NCBI GenBank assembly: GCA_944323595.1
Contig: CALUTF010000002.1
Span: 1 to 64,000, forward strand
DNA from: Candidatus Gastranaerophilales bacterium
GTDB lineage: Bacteria > Cyanobacteriota > Vampirovibrionia > Gastranaerophilales > Gastranaerophilaceae
Direction: 5' to 3'
DNA: 64,000 bases
The notes below the pieces were generated by a model. It was not told the origin of the DNA, did not search any database, and worked only from the letters and a program-made list of their open reading frames with translations. The position numbers and the translations under genes are program-made. Below are positions 12,569 through 61,132 of the stretch, piece after piece; the first letter of the stretch is position 1, and every line of letters begins with the position of its first letter.

Positions 12569-12633
12569 TTGTAACAAATTGTTAACATTTTATTATATTT
12601 AGGCAATTTGATAATGAATATATACTTTATATA
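12569..12633 (+). promoter_or_regulatory. Regulon promoter A (palindrome, GCAATT, ACTTTATATA)
   Basis: TTGTAACAA at 12569-12577, GCAATT at 12603-12608, 15 bases, ACTTTATATA at 12624-12633. The palindrome starts 34 bases before GCAATT. The same layout precedes 40726, 53109 and 54152 and, on the other strand, the RNA at 60698. The distance from GCAATT to TTTATA is 17 bases, as in promoters of sigma-70-family factors, but GCAATT is not a sigma-70 -35 box. Confidence 0.75.
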
Positions 12634-12662
12634 TTTACGAGGACTAATAATAAGGACACATC

Positions 12663-40637: not shown

Positions 40638-40692
40638 TTGTAACGAAATTACATTATATACGCAATTATTTAAAACGTATATACTTTATATA
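40638..40692 (+). promoter_or_regulatory. Regulon promoter B (palindrome, GCAATT, ACTTTATATA)
   Basis: TTGTAACGA at 40638-40646, GCAATT at 40662-40667, 15 bases, ACTTTATATA at 40683-40692. Palindrome to GCAATT is 24 bases. Confidence 0.75.
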
Positions 40693-40725
40693 TATAAAGC
40701 ACGAGTAAACTAAGGAGATGAGTTT

Positions 40726-53021: not shown

Positions 53022-53075
53022 TATTAACAAAATCCGCAGAAAAAGCAATTTGAGGATAAAAAAAAACTTTATATA
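53022..53075 (+). promoter_or_regulatory. Regulon promoter D (palindrome variant, GCAATT, ACTTTATATA)
   Basis: TATTAACAA at 53022-53030 (two mismatches to TTGTAACAA), GCAATT at 53045-53050, 15 bases, ACTTTATATA at 53066-53075. Palindrome to GCAATT is 23 bases. Confidence 0.7.
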
Positions 53076-53108
53076 AACAGGTAAGGAAAAAAAGGTAGGT
53101 TAATAGTT

Positions 53109-54077: not shown

Positions 54078-54121
54078 TTGTAACAAAAGGGCAATTTTTA
54101 AATTAGTAAATACTTTATATA
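54078..54121 (+). promoter_or_regulatory. Regulon promoter C (palindrome, GCAATT, ACTTTATATA)
   Basis: TTGTAACAA at 54078-54086, GCAATT at 54091-54096, 15 bases, ACTTTATATA at 54112-54121. Palindrome to GCAATT is 13 bases. Confidence 0.78.
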
Positions 54122-54151
54122 TATAAGGGAAAATTAATTCACGGGGAAATC

Positions 54152-59088: not shown

Positions 59089-60525
59089 ATGAAACACTAC
59101 ACAATGACGAAGATTGTTGCGACGCTTGGTCCTGCAACAACAACAAAAGCGGACATAAAAAAATTATATGATGCCGGAGTAACCATGTTCCGTCTTAATT
59201 CATCACACGAAACTCCGGCTGTACACCTTGAAAGATTAAATTACATCAGAGAAATTGAAAAAGAAGAAAAAACTCTGATTCCTGTACTTTTAGACTTACA
59301 AGGTCCTAAAATCAGAATTGGTGAATTAAAAGAAAGTATTGAAATTAAAAAAGGTGAGATACTTAAATTCAAACACCAAGCTGAAATGGTTGACGGTATA
59401 ATCCCCGTTGATTATGAGGGTATTGCTGACGATGTTAAACCGGGAGAAAAAATTCTCATTGATGACGGTAAATTACAATTAATCGTTGAAACAGTTGAAA
59501 ACGGAGTAATCAGTGCCAGAGTTGAAACAGGCGGATTATTGAAGAAAAGAAAAGGTATTAATATCCCCGGAGCAACAGGAAGTATTGATGTTTTGACGCA
59601 ACAAGACTTTGAATACGTCAATTTTGCGATAACAAATAATATTGATTATCTTGGTCTTTCATTTGTCAGAACAGGCGACGATGTAAGAAAACTCAGAAAA
59701 ATTCTTGACAATATGAATGCACAGGTAAAAATAATTTCAAAGATAGAAAAACCGCAAGCTGTTGAAAATATCGATGAAATTATTTCTTTATCTGACGGTA
59801 TTATGGTTGCAAGAGGCGATTTAGGTATTGAAATTTCAACGGAAAAAGTACCTATCGTTCAAAAAGATATTATCAGAAAAGCAAACATGAACAGAAAAGT
59901 TGTTATCGTTGCAACACAAATGCTTGAAAGCATGATTGAAAATCCTATTCCGACCCGTGCTGAAACCTCAGACGTTGCAAACGCAATTTTTGACGGTGCG
60001 GACGCTGTTATGCTTTCAGGTGAAACCGCTGCAGGTAAATATCCGGAAGAAGCAGTTCATATTATGAAAATGATTGCCGACAACGTTGAAGCAAGCAACT
60101 TCCTTGAAAGAAACTGTTTCTCTAAAAACATGATTGAAAGTATTACAAACCAATCAATGGCAATAGGTATGGCAATTACTGATATTATAAAGAATATTGA
60201 TGTAAAAGCTATTGTAACAATTACAGCAAGCGGATATACACCTAAATTCTTATCAGAATCAAGACCGAGTGTTCCTATTTTTGCATGCTGCCCGCAAAAA
60301 GCAACTTGCAGAGGGATAAAATTATACAGAGGTATCTACCCGATTAACCTGCAAATTGAAGGGAAAATCGATAAACAAACACTTAGAAAAATCGATGATT
60401 ACTTCCTTAATCAAATGGAATACTCAAAAGGAGACATCGTTGTATTTACCGGTTCAATTCCACAACTTTTGACCGGCGGTACAAACTTTATCAAAATCCA
60501 TGAACTCGGCTCTACTGATAACTAA
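59089..60525 (+). CDS. pyk: Pyruvate kinase
   Basis: 478 aa. KIVATLGPATTTKADIKKLY at the start, LLDLQGPKIRIGEL, catalytic Lys in IISKIEKPQAVENIDEI, MVARGDLGIEIS and MLSGETAAGKYP are intact. Makes pyruvate and ATP from PEP; C-terminal allosteric domain is present. AAGG precedes the ATG. Confidence 0.98.
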   Translation: MKHYTMTKIVATLGPATTTKADIKKLYDAGVTMFRLNSSHETPAVHLERLNYIREIEKEEKTLIPVLLDLQGPKIRIGELKESIEIKKGEILKFKHQAEMVDGIIPVDYEGIADDVKPGEKILIDDGKLQLIVETVENGVISARVETGGLLKKRKGINIPGATGSIDVLTQQDFEYVNFAITNNIDYLGLSFVRTGDDVRKLRKILDNMNAQVKIISKIEKPQAVENIDEIISLSDGIMVARGDLGIEISTEKVPIVQKDIIRKANMNRKVVIVATQMLESMIENPIPTRAETSDVANAIFDGADAVMLSGETAAGKYPEEAVHIMKMIADNVEASNFLERNCFSKNMIESITNQSMAIGMAITDIIKNIDVKAIVTITASGYTPKFLSESRPSVPIFACCPQKATCRGIKLYRGIYPINLQIEGKIDKQTLRKIDDYFLNQMEYSKGDIVVFTGSIPQLLTGGTNFIKIHELGSTDN

Positions 60526-60550
60526 TCTGCCGGATTCAATTTAATACAAA

Positions 60551-60698
60551 ATAAAAAGCCCCTTTTATAGGGGCTGAATTTTTGTTTAGGAAGGTAGGAA
60601 TAGGAATTTGTCTCTCTTTTTTAAACGGAATATATTAAATCTCTCTCTTAATATCGTGTCTATTTAATCTGTTACTTCTCGCTTTGTGTTATGTCTTA
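60551..60698 (-). ncRNA. Candidate small RNA from the shared promoter
   Basis: Minus-strand promoter boxes at 60756-60703 point away from any ORF. About 140 bases on lies a terminator (AGCCCC/GGGGCT, then T-run). The only ATG in between is followed at once by TAA, so it is probably not coding. A pyrimidine stretch (UUCCUAUUCCUACCUUCCU) sits before the terminator and could pair with Shine-Dalgarno sequences; UACCUUCCU fits the 56158-56166 ribosome-site region exactly. Confidence 0.55.
60557..60575. terminator. Hairpin ending pyk and the antisense-oriented RNA
   Basis: AGCCCC, loop, GGGGCT with A-run and T-run on opposite sides. Confidence 0.85.
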
Positions 60699-60702
60699 CA
60701 TA

Positions 60703-60756
60703 TATATAAAGTATATAACGAAAGTTCAATTTCAAATTTTATAAAAGTTGTTACAA
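60703..60756 (-). promoter_or_regulatory. Regulon promoter E (minus strand)
   Basis: TTGTAACAA (60756-60748), GAAATT (60733-60728), 15 bases, ACTTTATATA (60712-60703). One mismatch to GCAATT; palindrome distance 23 as in promoter D. Confidence 0.7.
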
Positions 60757-60847
60757 AAGTTAACATAAAATTCTTAAGCAGGAGTATTGATTTTTATAAA
60801 ATTAAGTTTTAAAATAAAAAGGTAAATAGGTTTTTTGAGGGTTAGTA

Positions 60848-61132
60848 ATGTTAGTTTCTTCAATTGCTAAATTTAATGCGATGAATCAAATGAACAATGC
60901 TGCATTTGCAATGATGCAGAGTTCTAATGCTATGATGAACAATGCTAATGGTCACACATTCGGAGGAGAGCACGATTTAAGCATGCTCAATAAGATGGAC
61001 AAAAAATTAAGCTTAGATCTTGTAACAAACAAACTTTTATACAAAATATCATATTTGCAGGAAAAAATGGCTTCTAAACGCATTGAAGCTGAATCTAAAA
61101 AGAATGGCTCAACTTTTTCTGCCTTAGCATAA
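60848..61132 (+). CDS. Unknown Met/Asn-rich small protein
   Basis: 94 aa: IAKFNAMNQMNNAAFAMMQS, NGHTFGGEHDL, then a basic helical part (DKKLSLDLVTNKLLYKISYL). Low-complexity Met/Asn N-terminus recalls 12663. GAGGG precedes the ATG; a TTGATT-17-TAAAAT promoter lies upstream. It is divergent from the small RNA. Unknown. Confidence 0.6.
   Translation: MLVSSIAKFNAMNQMNNAAFAMMQSSNAMMNNANGHTFGGEHDLSMLNKMDKKLSLDLVTNKLLYKISYLQEKMASKRIEAESKKNGSTFSALA

Follow-up and report, generated by a model that had tools for sequence, protein, structure and literature searches.

A conserved small RNA gene of Gastranaerophilales and its predicted pairing with Shine–Dalgarno regions

In the window, that is, the whole 64,000-nucleotide stretch of Candidatus Gastranaerophilales DNA analysed here, a promoter and an intrinsic terminator next to pyk enclose a segment with no usable ORF. 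Is this a small RNA gene, and which messages could its RNA act on? The first-pass annotation had proposed a small RNA with an anti-Shine–Dalgarno stretch, and its coordinates (60551-60756) and its description of the elements proved correct, all of them being found on the minus strand (Table 1). We conclude that the region 60551-60700 (-) almost certainly contains a real small RNA gene.

Table 1. Positions of the small RNA gene, its elements and neighbours, and the regulon sites in the window
Feature	Position	Strand	Remarks
Small RNA gene	60551..60700	-	5' end predicted at about 60700-60693 and 3' end at about 60551; ~145 nt
TGTAAG	60700-60695	-	at the predicted 5' end of the small RNA
Promoter core TATATACTTTATATATA	60701..60717	-	4 exact sites in the genome; reversed control 0
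Second promoter box TGAAAT	60729..60734	-	fixed spacing, ~13 nt before TATACT; GAAATT/GCAATT at regulon promoters
Upstream promoter element TGTTAACTTTTGTAACA	60749..60765	-	5-bp inverted repeat; contains the regulon's TGTAACAA box
CCGTTT(AAA) block	60623..60628	-	nearly invariant in alignments; GAGAGA repeats on either side
C/U-rich stretch TTCCTATTCCTACCTTCCTAA (RNA: UUCCUAUUCCUACCUUCCUAA)	60586..60606	-	invariant alignment core; predicted target-pairing region
Intrinsic terminator AGCCCCTATAAAAGGGGCT-TTTTATTTT	60548..60575	-	hairpin 60575-60557, then U-run to ~60550
pyk (pyruvate kinase)	59089..60525	+	convergent neighbour of the small RNA
orf94	60848..61132	+	divergently placed; in some genera a candidate target
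Regulon core	12619-12635	+	
Regulon core	40678-40694	+	
Related core CTTTATATA	53067	+	upstream of gene 53109
Leader of regulon gene 53109	53067..53108	+	core CTTTATATA, boxes AGGTAAGG and AAGGTAGG
Regulon core	54107-54123	+	upstream of gene 54152
Leader of regulon gene 54152	54107-54151		

The gene and its shared promoter

Since the promoter of the small RNA departs from the textbook sigma-70 pattern, a consensus promoter scan did not pick it as such, and its support comes instead from the regulon core motif. The TGTAACAA box lies at a constant distance upstream of the core at the promoters of both the small RNA and the mRNAs in many genera, and the order-wide layout can be written as TGTAACAA-N17-(TGAAAT/GCAATT)-N13-TATACTTTATATATA. 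Of 192 order genomes, 173 carry the core together with TGTAAG (two mismatches at most), the reversed-pattern control giving essentially 0, and the number of promoter sites reaches 20 in a genus g25 genome. The TGTAACAA and GAAATT/GCAATT boxes are also present upstream of the other regulon cores of the window. The genes downstream of these cores belong to orphan families with no convincing Pfam match. Membership of the small RNA in a shared-promoter regulon, as had been proposed, is thus supported at the motif level, and the RNA with its promoter motif offers a starting point for studying a large regulon made up of orphan proteins.

Within the RNA, a GAGAGAGA block also lies between TGTAAG and the C/U stretch (-), and the terminator hairpin is bidirectional, since it also ends pyk on the opposite strand. 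Start codons and ORFs are depleted: in 56 related copies the longest ORF had a median of 0 aa, compared with 13 aa in shuffles. The consensus structure obtained with RNAalifold consisted of the terminator hairpin only, with no other conserved or covarying structure. In most examples the minimum-energy fold left the C/U stretch unpaired; in the folding ensemble it was not more open than its surroundings (0.59 unpaired, compared with 0.58 for the rest of the RNA). No match to Rfam 15 was found in the region at the gathering score, and the best sub-threshold match, SpF51 (E 0.12), resembles chance. A search for Hfq (PF17209) in the host's own genome gave 15.7 bits at best against a curated cut-off of 27, which 5 of 14 control genomes pass.

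Conservation and distribution

When the small RNA region was used together with its promoter in BLASTN, matches were obtained in 48 of 59 relatives, although many covered nothing but the promoter. Alignment A1, made from 12 species, kept ATTCCTATTCCTACCTTCCTAA, TCCGTTT, AAGAGAGA and the position of the hairpin, and the hairpin persists although its letters change. We searched a covariance model of the small RNA (R1) against 146 genomes of the host family; it matched 76 of them, in 25 of 41 genera (E<=0.01), and 59 family genomes at the stricter E<=1.2e-4, the window's own match being 60551-60674 (E 1.3e-17). In the comparison of relatives, as suggested earlier, covarying structure appeared only in the terminator. 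It was also checked whether the stretch is unconserved where pyk is conserved, and this was not so: the stretch is kept over at least 25 genera. In a survey of 194 genomes of the phylum, 62 had a match and all 62 came from the host family.

Seventy copies of the small RNA were fetched (the median length of related copies is 134 nt), and in 58 the core promoter stands directly upstream by a strict pattern, some of the others having a variant core. Convergence with pyk was seen in 32 of the 70, the other sites being elsewhere, for example in genera g2 and g8. Because the gene neighbourhoods differ, the promoter, RNA and terminator are conserved as a unit of their own; at the level of sequence, this is a conserved unit with a promoter, a terminator, a kept stretch and no ORF.

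A 22-mer of the C/U stretch, TTCCTATTCCTACCTTCCTAAA, had 41 exact matches in the genomes of 84,980 species, under the titles Candidatus Gastranaerophilales and Candidatus Scatousia and in further MAGs, of which one bears the title Fusobacterium sp. CAG:439. The MAGs without a lineage title and the Fusobacterium-titled one presumably belong to the same order. There were 0 matches to the 22-mer in IMG/VR, and a phage or viral origin was rejected, no match being found in phages or IMG/VR. The RNA provides a lineage-wide marker for Gastranaerophilales, a common uncultured animal-gut order related to Cyanobacteria. Nothing relevant was found in the literature on small RNAs or the regulon of Gastranaerophilales, and as far as our searches show, the RNA is previously undescribed and no small RNA or regulon has been described for the order.

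Genera without an R1 match have the same promoter, followed by a different G-poor, C/U-rich stretch and a terminator. The stretches are ACTAACTAACCTACCTAACTTCCTAACCTTCCCTTCCTA (genome G008 and others), CCCTAAATCCCTTCCTAACTAATTTTCCTAG (genus g25) and ACCTACTACCTAACCTAACTAACCTTCCC (family f7), all three with the TGTAAG 5' end kept, and ATTCCTTCCCTTCCTTCCCTTCCTAA (family f4), with the core promoter but a different 5' end. Since promoter, C/U-rich RNA and terminator recur in these genera, the design is order-wide, the C/U sequence drifting while its character stays constant. Another element, ACATTAAATAAACACGAGGATATTAAGAGAGAGAGTATAAA, found at L109, L114 and L115 (near 2001-2100), resembles the 5' half of the small RNA only; it is placed after a hairpin and has no C/U stretch, and is perhaps another transcript type with the same 5' half.

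Candidate targets and the proposed mechanism

The target named in the first-pass annotation was gene 56176. The complementary AGGAAGGTA is indeed present 5' of this gene, and AGGAAGGTR upstream of it is kept in the four members of the genus; the other genera examined carry both the small RNA and the gene, but the motif is absent upstream of the latter. In addition, its duplex score was not unusual in the own genome (z -1.1, p 0.13). The site is thus complementary within the genus only, and with the leader motif absent in those other genera and the score unremarkable, 56176 was rejected as a conserved target beyond the genus.

Judged by sequence complementarity, the leader of the regulon gene 53109, 7.5 kb away, is predicted to be the best candidate target within the window. 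Its AAGGUAGG matches CCUACCUU of the small RNA in perfect complementarity, and orthologues from many genera retain the doublet of this leader. It ranked 5 of 654 leaders in the own genome (G000, z -2.5) and 5 of 387 in an independent genus (G009, z -3.1), that is, in the top ~1% of leaders in two genera. In 5–6 of 7 genera, the genus's own small RNA paired better with the 53109 leader than with three control leaders. In genera g14 and g54 the leader retains GGUAGG, yet the small RNA has no CCUACC, and a permutation test of leader–small RNA co-evolution over 14 genera gave p 0.11.

The divergent neighbour orf94, which encodes a conserved small Met/Asn-rich protein and stands in the order pyk-sRNA-orf94-MFS transporter, was taken up as a candidate only after the fact. 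Its leader, of the GUAGGAG..UAGGAGUUAGGAAUG type in genera g7 and g18, is predicted to pair there with the small RNA at ~-16 to -24 kcal/mol, in a duplex that spans the Shine–Dalgarno sequence and the start. The homologue in G009 ranked 2 of 387 (-22.6 kcal/mol, z -3.0), and the strength was similar in G141 and G078; in the window's own genome the pairing is weak (rank 129 of 828).

Overall, duplex energies with the 654 leaders of the own genome, ~40% of which was read, as stretches, were no better than with permuted seeds, so a genome-wide target list drawn from this genome alone was discarded. The regulon genes as a class were not better paired with the small RNA either (p 0.33). Target prediction at start regions, as had been suggested, therefore yielded good single candidates, 53109 and orf94, but no overall excess.

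The mechanism that we infer, covering transcription, pairing, repression and the identity of the targets, is as follows. An independent small RNA of ~145 nt would be transcribed from the promoter common to the lineage-specific protein genes and would act in trans, independently of Hfq. Its repeated, G-free C/U stretch beside the terminator would pair with G-rich Shine–Dalgarno regions (AGGUAGG, UAGGAGUUAGGAA and similar) in a small number of mRNAs, chiefly those of regulon genes and of the neighbouring orf94, and the pairing would block ribosome binding and so brake the regulon with a delay. A hallmark of small RNAs like LhrC is the repetition of C/U motifs with complementarity to the Shine–Dalgarno sequence, for which reason anti-Shine–Dalgarno pairing is the leading explanation, and a trans-acting, Hfq-independent RNA of this kind seems to us probable. 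From the earlier proposal the independent gene and the conserved, repeated C/U stretch remain, without 56176 as a conserved target. If true, the cyanobacterial branch would have a C/U-rich anti-Shine–Dalgarno brake that works without a recognisable Hfq, and the brake would have specific candidate targets.

The C/U repeats and the GAGAGA/CCGUUU blocks might alternatively bind a protein, the RNA titrating or carrying an RNA-binding protein and base pairing not being its main mode. We consider this unlikely, though the short repeated units (UUCCUA two to four times, GAGAGA two to three times), the presence of several conserved blocks without base-paired structure, with covariation in the terminator only, and the weak overall target enrichment all speak for it. 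The C/U block, however, varies between genera (UUCCUUCCUUCC, CUAACCUACCUAACUUCC, CCCUAAAUCCCUUCC) while remaining G-free, and pairing with purine-rich sites therefore fits better than a single protein site; moreover, there are no GGA (CsrA-type) repeats and no Hfq above the cut-off. It is improbable that other regulon RNAs, and not the Shine–Dalgarno sites of mRNAs, are what the RNA pairs with, acting as their partner or sponge: a search for AGGTAGG in 828 kb of the own genome found no conserved complementary RNA besides mRNA leaders. What suggests such partners is the mRNA of a 54-aa regulon protein (G000:C2:80133), which holds a near-copy of the stretch, CCTATTCCTATATTCCTA, so that there may be several RNAs with a common seed.

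A functionless by-product, either antisense read-out or a spurious promoter beside the pyk terminator, could be imagined from the own genome, where the small RNA abuts the common terminator. It is very improbable given that the RNA is kept over 25+ genera, moves with its promoter to other sites and carries a lineage-specific 22-mer. The GAGAGA repeats are similar to the ribosome sites of regulon mRNAs, as would be expected of a micropeptide message or of an mRNA leader that ends early, yet the spacing of the blocks varies in all three frames and the strong copies have the terminator directly after; we give this the least credence, and with the ORFs depleted the peptide-coding reading was rejected.

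Relation to known small RNAs and a possible second C-rich RNA

The first-pass annotation had drawn its parallels from Gram-positive small RNAs. The host is not Gram-positive; it belongs to Gastranaerophilales, a non-photosynthetic sister lineage of Cyanobacteria. In Listeria, redundant C/U motifs of LhrC bind the Shine–Dalgarno region, and lapB is controlled without a requirement for Hfq (PMC4132741). Like LhrC1-5, the RNA described here has redundant, conserved, CU-rich and G-poor motifs in an independent gene with its own promoter and terminator, but it comes from another phylum and has no sequence relation to them. The CUCCC/UCCC motifs of LhrC lie in loops and an open stretch, whereas here the stretch precedes the terminator, and LhrC has five copies under LisRK where we find one main copy.

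The csRNAs of streptococci combine a C/U-rich anti-Shine–Dalgarno stretch with a terminator. Their genes lie within the CiaRH regulon alongside protein genes (PMC3091779, PMC4507080). The Gastranaerophilales gene likewise shares a transcriptional regulon with protein genes, although the csRNAs have several copies, a CiaR-controlled promoter, and an unrelated sequence and phylum; its promoter is of the TGTAACAA/TGAAAT/TATATACTTTATATATA type, not the CiaR type, and no csRNA match was found in Rfam.

Yfr1 of cyanobacteria has 54-69 nt, a 5' stem-loop and an ultraconserved unpaired 11-mer, ACUCCUCACAC, before its terminator (PMC2190773). The likenesses are the sister lineage, the lineage-wide occurrence and a CU-rich unpaired stretch ahead of the terminator. 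The Gastranaerophilales RNA, in contrast, is longer and has no consensus 5' stem; in place of two flanking stem-loops in 54-69 nt there is the terminator hairpin only, in a median of 134 nt, and the 11-mer ACUCCUCACAC is absent from 60551-60700 and from the related copies inspected. It is thus a new small RNA family of a known kind, which resembles the LhrC, csRNA and Yfr1 types and belongs to none of them.

The 3' UTR of the 54-aa regulon mRNA contains a further element, AATTTTTCCCCTACAAATTTTGT, before its terminator (L004:1418-1440; G000:C2:80417-80439). Its conservation spans 12 genera (15 genomes), control matches being almost absent, and by its sequence it is a possible 3'-UTR small RNA complementary to GGGGAAA leaders. 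The near-copy CCTATTCCTATATTCCTA lies in the same 3' UTR (L004:1373-1390; G000:C2:80372-80389) and is kept in the genus-mates G001 and G002. The adjacent regulon genes 53109 and 54152 have leaders with doublets of unusual ribosome sites, of the AAGGTAGG type and the GGGGAAA type, respectively, which are conserved in many genera. Tentatively, the order-wide regulon may be a matched RNA network, in which the small RNA and the 3'-UTR element AAUUUUUCCCCUACAAAUUUUGU would each pair with their own leader class (AAGGUAGG-type sites for 53109-type genes, GGGGAAA-type sites for 54152-type genes), and one transcription signal would set the mRNAs together with the RNAs that brake them; we regard this as possible but doubtful. 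In the own genome the 54152 leader ranked only 47 of 654 with the AATTTTTCCCCTACAAATTTTGT element. Across genomes, the strongest pairing of the element was with GGGGAAA leaders, those of 54152-type genes (mean z -2.6), and in 16 of 16 genomes the 54152-type leader beat that of 57650.
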